Below, piece by piece: positions 19,060 through 26,339 of a stretch of 64,000 nucleotides of DNA. Origin of the DNA: Actinomycetota bacterium (GTDB taxonomy: Bacteria > Actinomycetota > Thermoleophilia > Solirubrobacterales > Solirubrobacteraceae); assembly GCA_018268595.1 (NCBI GenBank), contig JAFDWH010000021.1:186001-250000 (forward strand), read 5' to 3'. The notes beneath the pieces are model-generated. The model searched no databases. It saw nothing but the letters and a program-made list of their open reading frames with translations, and was not told the origin of the DNA. The position numbers and the translations under genes are program-made. The first letter of the stretch is position 1. Every line of letters begins with the position of its first letter.

Positions 19060-20190
19060 TCAGGTGCTGGGGCGTCGTTTGGCGAGGTAGAGCTCGGCGT
19101 CGGCGCGTGCGATGAGAGAGTCGAGCGTGTCGTCGTCCCGCAGGCTGGCCTGTCCGGCGCTGATCGAGGCGGCGGGGCTGCGTGCGTTGAGCGTGCGCTG
19201 GATCTCGGCGATGCGCTCGGCTGCGAGTCCGAGGGTGACGTCGGACATCGCGAAGACGAACTCGTCGCCGCCCCAGCGGACGGTGATGTCGTAGGAGCGC
19301 AGCGTCGAGGTGATCGCGATCGCGACGTCGCGCAGGAGCGCGTCGCCGGCCGTAGGGCCGGCGTGGTCGTTGACGTCCTTGAGCTCGTCGACGTCGAGCA
19401 CCGCCAGCACGAAGCGCCGTCCGAGCCGGCGCGCACGGTCGATCTCGTGCGTGAGGGCGAGCTCGCCGATGCCACGACGGAAGACGCCGGTCAGCTCGTC
19501 CAGCCCGCCGAGCCGGCGGTCGCTCGCCGCATGCTCGCGGTCGTCGGCTGCGGCGCGGCGATCGGCCGCTGCCGCGGCCCGCTCGTCCGTCGCGCGCTGG
19601 CGCGTCTCGGCGGCCGACCGCCGCGCCCGCTGCAGCGCGAGGATCGCGTCGTCGATCGTTCCGGACTCGGCAGCGCGCTGCTCGCGCAGCTCTGCGGCCC
19701 GGTCGCGGGCGGCTGCCGCGTCGTCGCGTGCCTGGGCGATCCGATCGCGCGCCTCGGCGGTCAGATCGCGCAATCGCGCGAGATCGTCCCGGTGCGTCGC
19801 CGTCTCGATCCGCCGAGCGGTGACCCATGCGCGTCCCGCGGCCGTGATCTCCCGTTGGCGGGTGGCCTCGTTGCGTTCCAACCGCGAGGATTCGTGCGCC
19901 TCGATCGCCGCCGGATCGGCCGGCGCATGTGTTCGCTCCCAGTCGGCAGCCGCTTGATCGCGGTCGGAGGCGTGCTGGTCGCGAGCGGCGAGCGCCTGGT
20001 CGGCGTCCGACGCCGTCTGGTCGGCGTCCGCTGCCGTCTGGTCTGCGTCTGCCTGCGATTGATTGAGATCTGCCGCCGACTGATCGGCCTCCTGCAGCGC
20101 CTGCGTCTCGAGCTCACCACGGCGTGCTCGCGTATTCGCACGCGCCAGCTCGCGCGCGTCACGCCCGTCGTGTGCGTGTGGCTGCGTCAT
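19060..20190 (-). CDS. Diguanylate cyclase with long coiled-coil N-terminus
   Basis: A 376-residue GGDEF protein making c-di-GMP. Residues ~30-80 contain near-repeats of DADQTA (hendecad-like coiled coil) and ~80-215 a continuous Ala/Arg/Glu-rich helix. The GGDEF domain covers ~218-376: DELTGVFRRGIGELALTHEIDRARR, LAVLDVDELKDVND and the intact catalytic loop RWGGDEFVF. No membrane segment or sensor domain; the coiled coil may control dimerisation. It starts 24 bp downstream of the SnoaL-like gene and probably shares its leader RNA (20701-20798). Confidence 0.9.
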   Translation of the reverse strand: MTQPHAHDGRDARELARANTRARRGELETQALQEADQSAADLNQSQADADQTAADADQTASDADQALAARDQHASDRDQAAADWERTHAPADPAAIEAHESSRLERNEATRQREITAAGRAWVTARRIETATHRDDLARLRDLTAEARDRIAQARDDAAAARDRAAELREQRAAESGTIDDAILALQRARRSAAETRQRATDERAAAAADRRAAADDREHAASDRRLGGLDELTGVFRRGIGELALTHEIDRARRLGRRFVLAVLDVDELKDVNDHAGPTAGDALLRDVAIAITSTLRSYDITVRWGGDEFVFAMSDVTLGLAAERIAEIQRTLNARSPAASISAGQASLRDDDTLDSLIARADAELYLAKRRPST

Positions 20191-20214: not shown

Positions 20215-20700
20215 TCAGAGCGGCAGCCGAGGCGCATGGGGGATCAGGTCGAGATCGGCGAGCATCTGCTCGTCGCTGAGGTAGCCGTGGGCCTCGATGA
20301 TCTCGCCCTGGTGCACGGAGGCGATCATCGCGGAGTCGGTGATGAGCTCGTCGCCGACGCGCAGCTTGGAGAGCACGAGGAAGCCGCTGGGCCGCAGCGG
20401 GCGGATCTCGCGGATGTGGACTTGGAAGTCCGCGCCGGTGGCGTCGATCTCCGCGACCCATCGCCGCAGCCCTTCGTGGCCGTGGTAGGTCCTGCGCTGG
20501 CCCACCAGCGTCGTGGGGCGGAATACGATGCGTGGGTGCGCCAACGCCACGAGTGCATCGGCGTCGCGATCGTTGAACGCCTCCACGAACGCGACCGCGA
20601 GCACGGTGAACGCGTTCTGGTCGGAGCTTCGATCGAGTGTGAGGCCGTCGTCGGCGAGCGGTGGAGGTGCGGGTGCCGCGGCGGCATGCTGCTTGGTCAT
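20215..20700 (-). CDS. SnoaL/NTF2-like protein
   Basis: A 161-residue protein: a disordered Ala/Pro start, then a SnoaL-like fold (FTVLAVAFVEAFNDRDADALVALAHPRIVFRPTTLVGQRRTYHGHEGLRRWVAEI ... GEIIEAHGYLSDEQML). Such small alpha+beta barrels bind ligands or isomerise small molecules; no catalytic residue is obvious. ATG 20698-20700 follows the GAGGAG site that the shared leader can sequester. First gene of a two-gene unit with the diguanylate cyclase, so a ligand-binding link to c-di-GMP signalling is possible but unproven. Confidence 0.75.
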   Translation of the reverse strand: MTKQHAAAAPAPPPLADDGLTLDRSSDQNAFTVLAVAFVEAFNDRDADALVALAHPRIVFRPTTLVGQRRTYHGHEGLRRWVAEIDATGADFQVHIREIRPLRPSGFLVLSKLRVGDELITDSAMIASVHQGEIIEAHGYLSDEQMLADLDLIPHAPRLPL

Positions 20701-20798
20701 GCCGAGACTCCTCGAGTCGCTGGGTTGGCGAAGCTCGGAAGTCAGGCGGCGCTGCGCAGTCCCCCTGTGGACCGCGCCCCGTCGCGGATGCCCTCCTC
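20701..20798 (-). ncRNA. Candidate cis-regulatory leader RNA, copy A
   Basis: The 98 nt before the SnoaL-like start closely match the leader at 25833-25931. Stem 1 pairs GCGCGGU (20777-20771) with ACUGCGC (20760-20754). A conserved linker includes GCCGCCUGACUUCCGAG. Stem 2 pairs CUUCCGAG (20741-20734) with CUCGAGGAG (20716-20708), one A bulged, which hides the GAGGAG ribosome site. A TACGCT -10-like box lies just upstream. Confidence 0.6.
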
Positions 20799-20843
20799 TG
20801 TCGACCCAGCGTACGCCCCCGGCGGCAGGCCCGCAAGGCACGG

Positions 20844-21272
20844 TCAGGAGTCGGCCGGCGGGTCCTCGTCGAGCAGGTCGCTGGGCGCAAGCACGAAGAT
20901 CTCGCAGAGCATGTCGGGGTCCTGCTGGTTGCCGCTCATGAAGCCGATCACGCGGCGGCCGGTGGCTTGCTGGATGACGGCCTCGAAGCGGTCGCGCATG
21001 ACGTCCTGGAAGGCCATCCGCTGGAGGATCACCTCGTGGCCGCGGCCGGCGTCGCGCAGCGTCTCCTCGACGCGTGTGAAGCCGCCGCGCAGCAGGCAGA
21101 CGACGAGGTCGTCCTCGTAGTAGGTCTTCGCGCGCGTCGGACCCTTGCCGTAGAAGTCCTTGAACAGCGCGACGATGCCGTCGGAGACGGCCGTGAGGAT
21201 CTCCCCGCGCGCCGCGCGCGTCGCCCCATGACCGTCTGTCGATACCGGCGGATCGTGATCGTGATCGCGCAT
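20844..21272 (-). CDS. DUF2294 protein
   Basis: A 142-residue cytoplasmic protein. AVSDGIVALFKDFYGKGPTRAKTYYEDDLVVCLLRGGFTRVEETLRDAG ... VMRDRFEAVIQQATGRRVIGFMSGNQQDPDMLCEIFVL follows the DUF2294 layout (GKGP.. in the first helix pair, TGR.V.gf.s.n..dpd...EiFvL). The family has no settled function. A second member, divergently encoded at 21395, shares the same intergenic region. Start ATG 21270-21272. Confidence 0.85.
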   Translation of the reverse strand: MRDHDHDPPVSTDGHGATRAARGEILTAVSDGIVALFKDFYGKGPTRAKTYYEDDLVVCLLRGGFTRVEETLRDAGRGHEVILQRMAFQDVMRDRFEAVIQQATGRRVIGFMSGNQQDPDMLCEIFVLAPSDLLDEDPPADS

Positions 21273-21394
21273 CCGCTCAGCGTAGTCCTACTATCAAGTG
21301 ACAGGCCCGGTCCCTGACCGACGTCCGCACGGCTCTCGCTCTCCGGCCACGCGCACGCACGCCTCGAACCGAGGGTGGGAAAGACCGGGCTGCG

Positions 21395-21760
21395 ATGGTT
21401 GTGCCCGACGGATGCCTGGACGGCGACGAGCTGCTCGACGCGGTGAGCAGATCGATGTCCGTCCTGCACGAGCGCTACTACGGTCGCGCGCCGGCGAACG
21501 CGAAGAGCCGCATGATGGGCGAGGACCTGCTGGCCTGCGTGCTCGGCGGGGTTTACAACGACGTCGAGAAGACGATGATCGAGCTCCAGCGCAGCGCGAT
21601 CGTGCAGGAGACCCGCAGCGCCTTCCAGACGGCGATGCAGCACAAGTTCATCGCCGAGGTCGAGCGCCTCAGCGGCCGGCGCGTGCTCGCGTTCATCTCC
21701 AACCACCACGTCGGCCCGGATCTCGAGATCGAGCTGTTCGTGCTCGCCACTCCGGGCTGA
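21395..21760 (+). CDS. DUF2294 protein, divergent paralogue
   Basis: A 121-residue paralogue of the minus-strand gene at 20844: LLDAVSRSMSVLHERYYGRAPANAKSRMMGEDLLACVLGGVYNDVEKTMIE ... RSAFQTAMQHKFIAEVERLSGRRVLAFISNHHVGPDLEIELFVL. The conserved pattern YG(K/R)(G/A)P(T/A) ... GRRV..F.S and the final E(I/L)FVL are shared. It ends 18 bp before kup, so the two are probably co-transcribed, suggesting a link with potassium uptake (inference). Confidence 0.85.
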   Translation: MVVPDGCLDGDELLDAVSRSMSVLHERYYGRAPANAKSRMMGEDLLACVLGGVYNDVEKTMIELQRSAIVQETRSAFQTAMQHKFIAEVERLSGRRVLAFISNHHVGPDLEIELFVLATPG

Positions 21761-21778
21761 CCGCCGCCAACGTGTACG

Positions 21779-23722
21779 GTGCGGCTGTCTGTGCGACGGA
21801 CCGCCAAGACCCCCGGCACGAGGGCGCGCGCCCCAGCCCAGGCGGCGCTCGTCGTCGGCGCGCTCGGGGTCGTCTTCGGCGACATCGGCACGAGTCCGCT
21901 CTACACGGTCCAGACGGTCTTCAACCCGGGCGATCCACACCCGGTCGCGGCCACCCGCGAGTCGATCTACGGCGTCGTCTCGCTGATCTTCTGGGCGGTC
22001 ACGATCGTCGTGACGCTGCTGTACGTGCTGCTCGTGATGCGCGCCGACAACGACGGCGAGGGCGGCATCATGGCGTTGATCACGTTGATCCGGCGGCGGC
22101 GCTTGCCGGGCGGAACGCGGACGAAGCTCGTGCTCGCGGCGCTGGGGATCTTCGGCGCCTCGTTGTTCTTCGGCGACAGCATGATCACGCCGGCGATCTC
22201 GGTGCTGTCGGCGGTCGAGGGCTTGAAGGTCGTCGAGCCGTCGCTGGGCCAGCTCGTCGTGCCGGTCACGGTGGCGATCATCGTCGTGCTGTTCGCGACG
22301 CAGCGGCTCGGAAGCGCGGCGGTCGGGCGCCTGTTCGGCCCGGTGATGATCGTCTGGTTCACCGTCGTCGGCGCCTGTGGGATCGCCGGCGTCGCGACCC
22401 ACCCGGCGATCCTCGGGGCGCTGTCGCCGACGTACGCGCTCGGCTTCCTGGCCGGCCACTTCTCGACCGCGTTCTTCTCGCTGGCGGCCGTCGTGCTGGC
22501 GATCACCGGCGCCGAGGCGCTGTACGCCGACATGGGTCACTTCGGCCGCGCGCCGGTCACGCGCGCGTGGCTGCTGCTGGTGTTCCCGGCGCTCGTGCTC
22601 AACTACATGGGCCAGGGCGCGCTGATCCTCGACGACCCGAGCGCCAACATCGCCAACCCCTTCTTCCTGCTGGTCCCGCACGCGATCCGGCTGCCGATGG
22701 TGCTGCTGGCGACGGCGGCGACGGTGATCGCCTCGCAGGCGGTCATCACCGGGGCCTTCTCGGTCGCCCATCAGGCCGTCCAGCTCGGCTACCTGCCGCG
22801 CTTGCGGATCTCCCACACCTCCGAGCGGACGATCGGGCAGATCTACGTGCCGTGGATCAACTGGGCGCTGATGGTGTCGGTGGTCACGCTCGTGCTGGCG
22901 TTCGAGTCCTCGCAGGCGCTCGCGTTCGCCTACGGCGTCGCGGTCACCGGCACGATCACGATCACCACGCTGCTGTTCTTCTACGTCGTGCGCCACCAGT
23001 GGCGCGCGCCGCTGTGGCTGGTGCTGGCCGGCGGCGGGGCCTTCCTGCTGTTCGACGTCCTGTTCCTCGCCGCCAACCTGACGAAGATCGCCCACGGGGC
23101 GTGGCTGCCGCTGCTGATCGGCGTGGCGGTCTTCACCGTGCTGACGACCTGGCAGCGCGGCCGCGAGCTGGTCACCGTCCAGCGCGAGCGCGCCGAGGGC
23201 TCGCTGCGCGGATTCGTGGAGGAGCTGCACCGGCGCCGCCCGCCGCTGCAGCGGGTGCCCGGGACGGCGGTCTTCCTCAACCGCAACCAGCTCAGCGCGC
23301 CGCTGGCGATGCGCGCCAACGTCGAGCACAACCACATCCTCCACGAGCACGTCGTGATCCTCACGATCGAGACGCTGCCGCTGCCGCATGTGCCGCCCGC
23401 GGAGCGGCTGACGATCGACGACCTGGGCTACGCCGACGACGGCATCAGCCACGTCGGCGCGCGCTTCGGCTACATGGACGACCCGAACGTCCCGGGCGTG
23501 CTGCGCCTCGCCGCCGCCGCCGGCCTCGAGTGTCCGCTCGAGGTCGACGACGCCTCGTACTTCCTCTCGACGATCGAGCTGCGCGCCGGCGACGCGCCCG
23601 GCATGACGCGCTGGCGCAAGCGCCTGTTCGTCGCCACCTCGCGCATCACCGCCGACGCCGCCGAGTACTTCGGCCTGCCGCGCGAGCGCACGGTGATCAT
23701 GGGCTCGCGCGTCGCGCTGTAG
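21779..23722 (+). CDS. kup: Kup/TrkD-type potassium transporter
   Basis: A 647-residue K+/H+ symporter in the cytoplasmic membrane. Signature GALGVVFGDIGTSPLYT near 30-45, about twelve hydrophobic segments to residue ~455, the motif ADMGHFGRAPVTRAWLLLVFPALVLNYMGQGAL, and a soluble C-terminal domain (~460-647, starting around HRRRPPLQRVPGTAVFL). GTG 21779 is used; a second GTG at 21791 is equally possible. No c-di-AMP-type riboswitch can be seen in the 18 bp before it. Lies within the 18.9-26.7 kb segment of the island but looks intact. Confidence 0.95.
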   Translation: MRLSVRRTAKTPGTRARAPAQAALVVGALGVVFGDIGTSPLYTVQTVFNPGDPHPVAATRESIYGVVSLIFWAVTIVVTLLYVLLVMRADNDGEGGIMALITLIRRRRLPGGTRTKLVLAALGIFGASLFFGDSMITPAISVLSAVEGLKVVEPSLGQLVVPVTVAIIVVLFATQRLGSAAVGRLFGPVMIVWFTVVGACGIAGVATHPAILGALSPTYALGFLAGHFSTAFFSLAAVVLAITGAEALYADMGHFGRAPVTRAWLLLVFPALVLNYMGQGALILDDPSANIANPFFLLVPHAIRLPMVLLATAATVIASQAVITGAFSVAHQAVQLGYLPRLRISHTSERTIGQIYVPWINWALMVSVVTLVLAFESSQALAFAYGVAVTGTITITTLLFFYVVRHQWRAPLWLVLAGGGAFLLFDVLFLAANLTKIAHGAWLPLLIGVAVFTVLTTWQRGRELVTVQRERAEGSLRGFVEELHRRRPPLQRVPGTAVFLNRNQLSAPLAMRANVEHNHILHEHVVILTIETLPLPHVPPAERLTIDDLGYADDGISHVGARFGYMDDPNVPGVLRLAAAAGLECPLEVDDASYFLSTIELRAGDAPGMTRWRKRLFVATSRITADAAEYFGLPRERTVIMGSRVAL

Positions 23723-23743
23723 CCGGCCGCCGAGCTCGCGGGG

Positions 23744-23917
23744 TCAGCGTTCGGCGCCGATCGCCGACTCGGCGCGCAGGTGCACGTCGGCTGCGGCCCA
23801 GCGCGCGTCCTGCCGGGAGTCGAAGGCCACGACCGACGTGGCGTACTCGATCCCGTCGTCGTCGGTGAGGCGCCAGTGGAACTGACCGCCGTTGTCCTGA
23901 TAGATCACGAACCGCAT
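23744..23917 (-). CDS. DUF1508/YegP-like small protein
   Basis: A 57-residue protein, MRFVIYQDNGGQFHWRLTDDDGIEYATSVVAFDSRQDARWAAADVHLRAESA. The pattern F.iY.d..G.f.WrL...nG...a.S...f.s...a..ai..v matches DUF1508 (YegP) beta-beta-alpha units. The GAGGAG site is 9 nt before this ATG; an upstream ATG that would add three residues touches it. It lies 5 bp downstream of a zinc-ribbon-like gene. Function of the family is unknown. Confidence 0.75.
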   Translation of the reverse strand: MRFVIYQDNGGQFHWRLTDDDGIEYATSVVAFDSRQDARWAAADVHLRAESAIGAER

Positions 23918-23922
23918 CCTGG

Positions 23923-24192
23923 TCATCTCCTCGCAGTGGTGGGAGCGGGGGAGAGCGTCCCCGCTTCGGAATAGAGGGCGCCGCCCTCGTTGAGCCAGCG
24001 ATCCGCGTCGAGGATGGGGGTGCCGGGATCGCGGACGCCGTCGGTGGACGCTCCGCCGATCAAGACCCGCAGCGTCGTTCGCGGCCTGTCCTCGGTGGCC
24101 CAGAGGGCTCCGCAGCGCCAGCAGCAGTCCTCTTGGCGGGCCATCGGCGCCCGGCAGGTGCGGCACAGGCGCGGGAGATGTCGATCGCGCAT
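23923..24192 (-). CDS. Zinc-ribbon-like small protein
   Basis: The 89-residue product starts MRDRHLPRLCRTCRAPMARQEDCCWRCGALW: two CxxC pairs about 13 residues apart, a probable zinc ribbon. The remaining ~60 residues show no known domain. Lies between a DUF1508 gene and an unnamed 82-residue gene, all on the minus strand and nearly touching, so they likely form one transcript. No function is recognised. Confidence 0.6.
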   Translation of the reverse strand: MRDRHLPRLCRTCRAPMARQEDCCWRCGALWATEDRPRTTLRVLIGGASTDGVRDPGTPILDADRWLNEGGALYSEAGTLSPAPTTARR

Positions 24193-24196
24193 GGGC

Positions 24197-24445
24197 TCAG
24201 CGCTCCTTCGGCGACGTCGGGGCGGTGCGCTTGTCCTTGCGCATCATGCTGAGGATCCTGGCGAGCAGGGTCCCGGTCGGATCGCTGCGCGCGCGGCGGC
24301 CTGACGGTCGGCTCGTGCCGCGCGTGGCCGGCGCCACCGTGACGCGTCGGTGCGTGGGCACGGTGTCGTCGTGCACGGTCACGGGCTCGGGGATGACGCC
24401 GGGGATCGGCGAGCGAGCCGGATTGGTTGTGGGCTGGGTCTGCAT
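24197..24445 (-). CDS. Hypothetical disordered protein (82 aa)
   Basis: MQTQPTTNPARSPIPGVIPEPVTV at the N-terminus, then basic Thr/Arg/Ser-rich sequence with one short hydrophobic patch (GTLLARILSMM) near the end. ATG 24443-24445 follows GGGAAGG, a good ribosome site, which is the main reason to accept it. Ends 4 bp before the zinc-ribbon gene. Not recognised. Confidence 0.45.
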   Translation of the reverse strand: MQTQPTTNPARSPIPGVIPEPVTVHDDTVPTHRRVTVAPATRGTSRPSGRRARSDPTGTLLARILSMMRKDKRTAPTSPKER

Positions 24446-24666
24446 GTCGAACGGCCTTCCCAAGCGCCAGATCGCCTTCGCGGCGTTTGGCTGCTCTGTG
24501 GTGGGACGGCGCTTCCGTCGCTGGGACGAAACTGTCCGTGAGGTCGCCGTTCGGCGTGTGGCCGGCGGTGCTCTGCGCGAAGTCGCTTCGCAGGAGCGGT
24601 GGAGTGGCCCTGTCCTGCCATCGTACTCGCATTCCGGTGGGGCACACAGTGCCTGCGGGCCGTGCG

Positions 24667-25677
24667 TCAGAGCGGACGGTCGGACTTGGCCCCGCGGTCG
24701 GTTCTGGGTCGGCGGGCGGACCAGATCCGGTCGGCGCTGGCCCATCCGAGGAAGCACAGGCCGCCGACCGTGCCGGTCGCGGTCAACAGCACGCCGGCGG
24801 CCGCGGCTGCCGCCACGCCGTTCCTGCCGAGGATGAGCACCGCCGCCGCGGCGCCGACGCTCGGACCGACCGGGAGCTGACTGAGCGTCACCACCGCGAT
24901 CAGGACGGCGATCGCATCGAAGAACGAGGCATCGACGCCGACCGCGTGCAACAGCACCCAGTTGCGGAAGATCTGCGCGAAGACGGCGAGCAGCACGAAC
25001 GCGATCACGCGGCTTCCGCCGTTCAGCTTGCGCAGCACCGTGAGGCCTCTCCACAACTCGCGACCGGTCGAGAGGGCGAGCTGCCGCAGGCCCGCGCTCG
25101 CGGCAGCGATCACGGCGAGCGCGACAAGCGGCAGCCACCACGGCAGCCCGAGCGGGGCGACGAGGGTGAACGACGTCAGCGCCGCCAACGTCGCCTCGAT
25201 CGCGAGGATCGGGAGCTCGGCTGCAACCAGCGTCGGGACCTGCGGGCTGACGAGCGGGGACGAGCGACGCAGCGCACCGACCCGCACGGCGATCGCCACC
25301 TGCCCGTTGAGCAGGGCCCCGAGCACCCCCATGCTCGAGGCGCGGTAGAGCGCGCGGCGTGGCACTGTCCCGCCCGCCGCCTCGATGCTCAGATGCCACG
25401 CCTCGCTGCGCCCCAGCAGCGCCACGACTTGCAGCAGCACCGCCACCGCGAGCACCCACACGGTCGCGTCGCCGAGCGCGGCCGCGAACTCGTGCCGGCG
25501 TCCGGCGAGCACGAACGCGAGGACCGCCGCCGTGGCGAGCGAGCCGACGACCGTGATCGGGACGCGCCGGCGACGACCGAAGCGCCGCATCCGGGCCGCC
25601 GACGCGACCAGCCGACCGCGGCGAGCTGTGCGCCGCGACGGGTCCGCGCCCTCGCTACGCGCGCCCGGCACGGTCAC
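24667..25677 (-). CDS. Flippase-like integral membrane protein (UPF0104 / LPG-synthase TM family)
   Basis: A 336-residue protein with a basic N-terminus (~45 residues) and about eight membrane helices. Segments such as VPITVVGSLATAAVLAFVLAG, ALLNGQVAIAVRVGALRRSS, AIEATLAALTSFTLVAPLGLP and LPVGPSVGAAAAVLILGRNGV match the membrane part of lysylphosphatidylglycerol synthases and the YbhN/UPF0104 group, which move or modify lipids. The soluble synthase domain is absent. The start could be later (MRRFGRRRR). No obvious partner gene. Confidence 0.7.
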   Translation of the reverse strand: MTVPGARSEGADPSRRTARRGRLVASAARMRRFGRRRRVPITVVGSLATAAVLAFVLAGRRHEFAAALGDATVWVLAVAVLLQVVALLGRSEAWHLSIEAAGGTVPRRALYRASSMGVLGALLNGQVAIAVRVGALRRSSPLVSPQVPTLVAAELPILAIEATLAALTSFTLVAPLGLPWWLPLVALAVIAAASAGLRQLALSTGRELWRGLTVLRKLNGGSRVIAFVLLAVFAQIFRNWVLLHAVGVDASFFDAIAVLIAVVTLSQLPVGPSVGAAAAVLILGRNGVAAAAAAGVLLTATGTVGGLCFLGWASADRIWSARRPRTDRGAKSDRPL

Positions 25678-25832
25678 TCCGGAGTCGCAGCGGCGCGTCC
25701 GACGGAGCCGACCTCTTCGAGGAGCGCTCGCTCGTGATGCGCATCACAGTCAGTACCTCGCATGCTCGTCGAGAGCGCGATTCGCACGCATCGTCCCTCG
25801 CGCGGTCAGGGCGCCAAGCGCTATGGTGATTG

Positions 25833-25931
25833 AAGGAGGGCACCCGCGACGGGGTGCGGTGGACCGCGATCGACCGCGCAGCGCCGCCTGACTTCCGAGC
25901 TTCGCTCACGTCCAGCGACTCGAGGAGCCCA
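25833..25931 (+). ncRNA. Candidate cis-regulatory leader RNA, copy B
   Basis: Nearly identical to copy A. Stem 1 is GUGCGGU (25854-25860) with ACCGCGC (25873-25879): relative to copy A a C-G pair becomes U-G and a G-U pair becomes G-C, so pairing is kept while the loop changes in sequence and length. Stem 2 pairs CUUCCGAG (25892-25899) with CUCGAGGAG (25919-25927), covering the ribosome site 4 nt before the GTG. A TATGGT box sits just upstream (25822-25827). Confidence 0.6.
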
Positions 25932-26339
25932 GTGTCCACATGTGTCCAGGCGTTGCTCGCATGCGAGTGCCACTCCGTCGCTATCGGCTACGAGCGGGTG
26001 AGCGCCGTCGGCGAGATAGACCTCGCAACCGGGGCGTGGCTGACCGACGCTCTGCAGGGAGCGCAGGCGCGCGCGCAGAGCGTCGTGCTCGACCTGAGCG
26101 CGGCGACGTTCATCGACGCGGGCGGCGTCCGCATCCTGCTCGCCGCCGACACGCATGCCCGCGCGGCATCCGGAACGTTCGCGATCGCCGATCCGACGTC
26201 GCCGGTGGAGCGAGTGCTCCAGCTCGTGGGAGCGGATCGCGTCCTCGCCATCCTGCGGCCCGGAATCCGCTCGCCCGAGCCCGCGACGCCGATCCGATCG
26301 ACGGCCGCTTCCGCCATCGCGCGAACGGCATGGCTGTGA
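25932..26339 (+). CDS. STAS-domain anti-sigma factor antagonist-like protein
   Basis: A 135-residue single STAS domain: VSAVGEIDLATGAWLTDALQGAQARAQSVVLDLSAATFIDAGGVRILLAADTHARAASGTFAIADP ... VLQLVGADRVLAIL. The loop LSAATFIDAGGV carries Asp instead of the usual phosphorylated Ser before (A/S)(G/T)G, so classical SpoIIAA-type phospho-regulation may not apply. GTG 25932 follows the GAGGAG that the shared leader can hide. A small membrane protein gene follows 37 bp later. Confidence 0.8.
   Translation: MSTCVQALLACECHSVAIGYERVSAVGEIDLATGAWLTDALQGAQARAQSVVLDLSAATFIDAGGVRILLAADTHARAASGTFAIADPTSPVERVLQLVGADRVLAILRPGIRSPEPATPIRSTAASAIARTAWL

Follow-up and report, generated by a model that had tools for sequence, protein, structure and literature searches.

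Two-fold 5′ leader RNAs as candidate translational switches before stress and envelope genes in Solirubrobacterales

Why should a SnoaL-like gene with a diguanylate cyclase gene behind it, and a STAS gene on the other strand, be preceded by nearly the same leader? The question arises in a 64,000-nucleotide (nt) stretch of an Actinomycetota bacterium of the family Solirubrobacteraceae (GenBank assembly GCA_018268595.1, contig JAFDWH010000021.1, positions 186,001 to 250,000), hereafter the window. The original prediction, made from the letters of this stretch, placed two near-identical leaders at 20798-20701 (minus) and 25833-25931 (plus) and proposed a translation-level cis-regulatory RNA. The positions hold: the copies, here called A and B, are 85% identical over ~94 nt (E=9e-23) and are the sole such pair genome-wide. 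Comparison with relatives indicates that the leaders are probably 5′-terminal cis-regulatory RNAs, which act as translational switches for a stress and envelope regulon. In this reading the start-codon lock is a supported step, and the OFF and ON steps are those that we infer.

Taken alone, the two window copies give a weak folding-energy signal (z = -1.35 and -0.08), and therefore the case rests on relatives. A plain BLAST search with the leader in 61 relatives retrieved three full-length copies, the third from a genome of the same genus, before a GAF-GGDEF-EAL gene. The rest were mostly chance matches of ~35-42 bits, yet partial matches revealed the core GAGGGCA...GCAGCGCCGCCTGACTTCC. A loose pattern run over the order gave ~20 clear members. 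Since a single short-motif pattern mixed real and chance copies, covariance models were used instead (R1, then R2, built from 67 sequences; their E-values are rough by design). Seeded with the window copies and sequences related to them, the models located numerous additional copies ahead of other genes, in 34 of the 146 genomes of the own family and, order-wide, in 38 of 232 genomes across three families, many of the sampled genomes being metagenome-assembled genomes (MAGs). Per genome, the number reaches 8 to 11 in some cases. The family comprises 102 distinct Solirubrobacterales copies, from an alignment of 105 (effective number ~88 at 80% identity).

The first fold is built by the 5′ end of the leader, [G/A]AGGGCA, which pairs with UGACUU[C/U] to form the helix P1, and by a P2/P3 hairpin. 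The outer pair of P1 is G-C in 83 of the 102 distinct copies, A-U in 17, G-U in one, and unpaired in one. The A-U copies are spread over two families and several genera, and more than one event likely lies behind them. A conserved G-U pair in P1 is G-U in 101/102. Within the P2/P3 hairpin, 11 of the 13 pairs change on both sides, and the near-fixed parts are the pairs beside a conserved internal loop (A/G-G vs A-G/A) and a conserved U-G pair. Since the aligned copies were fitted to the model structure, these pair counts lean towards the model. The family covariation score is 0.352, compared with 0.161 for shuffled alignments (0/500; 102 distinct copies). Independent of the alignment are the outer P1 pair, which is anchored by invariant neighbours, and the two tests on ribosome site and start region given below. 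Between the window copies, the linker CAGCGCCGCCTGACTTCCGAG is identical and both changes in the first proposed stem preserve pairing, as had been claimed.

The second fold uses the 3′ strand of P1 again. GACUU[CU]N and the following bases complement the Shine-Dalgarno (SD) sequence, often through 8-12 continuous pairs. The leaders score higher with their own SD (mean 17.4) than with permuted SDs (14.7 +/- 0.29; 0/2000), and matched anti-SD/SD changes are seen in CUUCCUUG/CAAGGAGG, CUUCAGG/CCUGGAG, CUUUCG/CGAAAG, and GACUUUCGGAUC/GAUCCGAGGGUC. In the window, CUUCCGAG is able to pair with CUCGAGGAG, which corresponds to the second stem proposed over the ribosome site. The SD pairing of that single-fold model stands, but the model was incomplete, as two exclusive folds exist. 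It missed that the 5′ GAGGGCA pairs with UGACUUC in P1, that the second stem uses the same strand, and that GAGGGCA can also pair with the start codon. The comparison establishes the P2/P3 hairpin, P1 and the alternative SD helix as predicted structures.

The lock on the start codon is a supported feature. Once the second fold has released it, the 5′ GGGCA would pair across the start codon and codon 2, closing a three-way junction. When full leaders are folded, GGGCA(U/C) pairs in this way with a probability >0.5 in 73% of the copies. Of 74 genes, 49 (66%) have [CU]C[CU] as codon 2, compared with 10 of 195 (5%) background genes taken from these loci. A script set the gene starts from SD and start codon without codon-2 information, and the codon-2 count is possibly slightly biased. 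The proteins under the leaders accordingly begin with M-P or M-S. Compensatory cases, read directly from the sequences, are GGACA/UGUCC at locus L218 and AGGCA/UGUCU at locus L199. In copy B, GGGCAC complements the GUGUCC start throughout, with one G-U pair.

As P1 and the anti-SD helix share a strand, and the start lock takes the 5′ strand of P1, the two folds are mutually exclusive. The leaders show what is expected of a riboswitch, an RNA domain that is conserved, covaries and lies in the 5′ leaders of genes, and what is expected of an expression platform, exclusive alternative folds, with P1 and the anti-SD helix sharing GACUU[CU] and both being supported. The core alone (first ~60 nt) folds into P1, with a median probability of 0.94 and >0.5 in 89% of cases. 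The full leaders are predicted to be closed: the SD is paired with a median probability of 0.99, P1 has a probability near 0, and the closed fold is favoured by a median of 6.9 kcal/mol (10th-90th percentile 1.9-13.4 kcal/mol). A closed fold that is the thermodynamic minimum could also belong to a passive structured leader, setting a low and constant translation rate. We regard this as very unlikely, because it leaves unexplained why P1 covaries and why P1 and the SD helix exclude each other.

The predicted layout is that of a translational switch, whose ON state would arise only if P1 is stabilised or is trapped while the RNA is being transcribed. The nascent RNA would form P1 first, and the full leader would then relax into the locked OFF fold. 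An effector stabilising the P1-P2-P3 hairpin would keep the SD and the start codon free, and so turn translation ON; as effector, a small molecule seems the most likely candidate, and a protein the next. Going one step further, and only tentatively, the leaders might constitute a new ligand-sensing RNA class, in which the 5′ end of the transcript acts as a double key, either as an SD mimic capturing the anti-SD or as a start-codon lock. Such a class could add one common level of translational control to a general-stress regulon of the SigB/STAS type, which would have up to ~10 members per genome.

Several observations weigh against a switch of this kind. Most P1 pairs are invariant, and P1 rests mainly on one covarying pair and a few changes. 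For about 10 of the 79 leaders that were modelled, no strong SD pairing is predicted. Own start-region pairing exceeds permuted pairing (9/2000; p ~0.005), a weaker result than that of the SD test, and the start helix of copy A (AUGACC) contains one mismatch. The direction of the switch, and with it the state that a signal would favour, we infer from the energies. Finally, the diversity of the targets is atypical for a metabolite riboswitch.

Position and orientation tie the family to gene starts. An SD and start codon lie 20-45 nt downstream of the motif, in sense, in 87/102 copies, compared with 6% of random positions, and on the opposite strand in 2/102. A mobile or dispersed DNA repeat, similar to repetitive extragenic palindromes (REP-like) and found before genes by chance, would account for the many copies per genome and the patchy distribution. 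It is nevertheless extremely improbable, given the sense orientation, the fixed distance to starts and promoters, and the fact that copies have only structural positions in common and that the similarity of the window copies declines outside the leader. The proposal of a translation-level cis-regulatory RNA is thus strongly supported, with relatives preceding many other genes, overwhelmingly in sense.

In 90/103 copies, the motif begins 7-9 nt after the end of a TAnnnT box, which itself follows a GGRG. With a -10 box ~8 nt upstream, the RNA would be expected to begin at the motif itself. A purely SigB-type promoter is one possible reading, but the GGRG-TAnnnT box, which has a weak TTG 17 nt before it, fits sigma A or SigB/F alike. 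In some loci, leaders stand back-to-back on opposite strands, 84 to ~600 nt apart, with divergent promoters carrying one each (L113 4001-4186, L103 1482-1670, L200 4001-4707).

Which genes are under the leaders? Among 60 scanned downstream proteins, 31 were STAS proteins, five fatty acid desaturases and four sigma factors, followed by two MFS exporters, two MpsC (Na+-translocating membrane-potential protein) and two LPG-synthase-TM-like proteins. GAF-GGDEF-EAL, phosphoketolase, alpha/beta hydrolase and SnoaL proteins occurred once each. Three of the sigma factors were closest to the SigB/SigF/SigG family, one above the cut-off and two just below, and a STAS protein that was tested is an anti-sigma factor antagonist. 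In the window, Pfam matches agree with the proposed gene assignments, SnoaL_2 then GGDEF on the minus strand and STAS on the plus strand. The proposed link to signalling genes is strongly supported, and STAS proteins make up half of the scanned targets. The tie to cyclic di-GMP (c-di-GMP) is weak: leaders precede STAS genes and c-di-GMP enzymes in the genus of the window, yet GGDEF/EAL enzymes are a small minority. What the targets have in common is general stress and the envelope rather than c-di-GMP alone.

These targets bear on two further explanations. The same two-fold leader may be thrown by a trans-acting RNA-binding protein or small RNA (sRNA), and would then form the post-transcriptional branch of a stress regulon. 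In some genomes more than ten copies stand in front of genes with diverse functions, a pattern closer to the regulon of a trans-acting factor than to one metabolic pathway, and the conserved internal loop of the hairpin could be a protein site. We consider this a possible but somewhat unlikely alternative; no protein or RNA emerged as a candidate partner, and the sequence does not separate it from ligand sensing. An RNA thermometer or cold-responsive leader, in which temperature shifts the balance of the two folds, would suit the desaturase targets as part of a membrane or temperature response, as well as the small energy gap in some copies and the conserved G-U pair of P1. A thermometer, however, does not need the strong conservation of the internal loop and the hairpin base, and the energy gaps vary widely, which makes this explanation rather improbable. 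If a translational switch is indeed at work, a bacterial general-stress network would be governed by more than its partner-switching proteins, as the mRNAs of many of its components, sigma factors and their STAS antagonists among them, would share one RNA switch. It would also provide an orphan switch class with ~100 natural variants and clear two-state design rules, in a little-studied order of soil bacteria.

Other genes under leaders were seen in individual genomes. In bog and palsa MAGs, leaders at loci L097, L098, L129 and L136 precede open reading frames (ORFs) of 76-102 amino acids (aa) with a common N-terminus, which may be truncated stress proteins. A protein of ~180 aa recurs under the leader in Solirubrobacter (L090 1085-1618, L196 3548-4093, L122 3432-3974), and the L090 protein, the only member scanned singly, had no Pfam match.

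The leader family is apparently undescribed. A search of the window and 16 family loci against Rfam 15, including the c-di-GMP riboswitches, gave no match to the motif, either at the gathering thresholds or with E up to 1-5, which bears out the statement that it could not be matched to a known riboswitch class. A Pseudomon-Rho match on the opposite strand of copy B was rejected (32.5 bits, gathering score 45), and the other weak Rfam matches were unrelated. In a full-text search of open-licence papers, no report of a riboswitch or RNA motif was found for Solirubrobacter, Conexibacter or Solirubrobacterales.

Known systems share parts of the design. In translational ON riboswitches of the add adenine type, the ground state hides both SD and start codon, and a stabilised 5′ domain frees both. 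A closed ground state opened via the 5′ domain is likewise what we propose for the leader family; in the latter, however, the 5′ terminus itself would be the switching strand, and some genomes have more than ten diverse loci. The Escherichia coli rpoS leader also sequesters the SD of a stress regulator, yet it is opened by sRNAs with Hfq, controls a single gene, and has no structure in common with the leaders described here.

The closest published RNA, compared by description only, is the dauA motif, a Streptomyces riboswitch candidate with 57 representatives and one gene type (PMC11109978, doi 10.1093/nar/gkae248). It is described as a junction of three stems with the SD as one of its parts, located before a STAS gene, with a proposed OFF state. 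The likeness is one of outline: Actinomycetota, STAS targets (half of those scanned here), and a predicted three-way junction including the SD in the OFF fold. In contrast, dauA is reported from Streptomyces only, and our copies were confined to Solirubrobacterales in the searches made; moreover, the passages describing dauA mention no alternative fold between 5′ end and anti-SD (PMC11109978). The same source lists the yjbJ (csbD) motif as a weak riboswitch candidate, with two hairpins and a terminator-like final stem (PMC11109978). It resembles our family as a leader of a general-stress gene, and leader L110 precedes a CsbD-like gene (recognised by eye), but as described there it is transcriptional and differs in structure.

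The distribution of the family was followed beyond the order as well. A phylum search of 396 genomes gave matches confined to Solirubrobacterales, plus one at L219 that falls in a cytochrome c-like reading frame and was assigned to chance. Weak matches in other classes and families (L076, L077, L078, L127) are unlike the leaders and were also assigned to chance. Scanning GTDB contigs with a pattern added Solirubrobacter phytolaccae, S. taibaiensis, and MAGs from bog, palsa and fen. Scattered records from elsewhere (Planctomycetales, Hydrogenophilus, Shinella, Cyclobacteriaceae) fit the number of expected chance matches, and two Chlamydiae-titled contigs match Solirubrobacterales genomes.

Table 1. 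Leader features and downstream genes in the window (window positions)
Feature	Position	Strand	Reading or evidence
Copy A core	20795-20737	minus	
Copy A -10-like box TACGCT	20808..20813	minus	Direct reading; 12 nt spacing to motif (family: 7-9 nt)
Copy A 5′ strand GAGGGCA	20789..20795	minus	Fold 1: P1 with UGACUUC; fold 2: GGGCA as start-codon lock; G1-C/A1-U covariation, codon-2 bias
Copy A P2/P3 hairpin with conserved internal loop	20746..20785	minus	11/13 pairs covary in family
Copy A shared switching strand GACUUCCGAG (P1 3′ strand / anti-SD)	20734..20743	minus	
Copy A SD region CUCGAGGAG	20708..20716	minus	Complement of CUUCCGAG
SnoaL-like gene (SnoaL_2) under copy A	20215..20700	minus	PF12680, E=2e-8
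GGDEF diguanylate cyclase gene, next after SnoaL gene in unit	19060..20190	minus	PF00990, E=3.4e-27
Copy B core	25836-25896	plus	
Copy B -10-like box TATGGT	25822..25827	plus	Direct reading; 8 nt 5′ of motif
Copy B 5′ strand GAGGGCA	25836..25842	plus	P1 or start-codon lock
Copy B P2/P3 hairpin	25846..25887	plus	
Copy B shared switching strand GACUUCCGAG	25890..25899	plus	
Copy B SD region CUCGAGGAG	25919..25927	plus	
STAS gene (anti-sigma antagonist type) under copy B	25932..26339	plus	PF13466, E=2.9e-12; PF01740

Between both leaders, the window contains long overlapping ORFs (21029-23868), one of 856 aa on the plus strand and one of 807 aa on the minus strand, neither with a Pfam match. An MpsC-family gene (PF10057; 20844-21272, minus) lies directly upstream of copy A, without a leader of its own, and MpsC genes at loci L116 and L187 are directly under a leader of the family. 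Divergent from copy B is a gene for a weakly LPG_synthase_TM-like membrane protein (24667-25677, minus), and in two Solirubrobacter genomes a gene of this type follows a leader (L088, L195).
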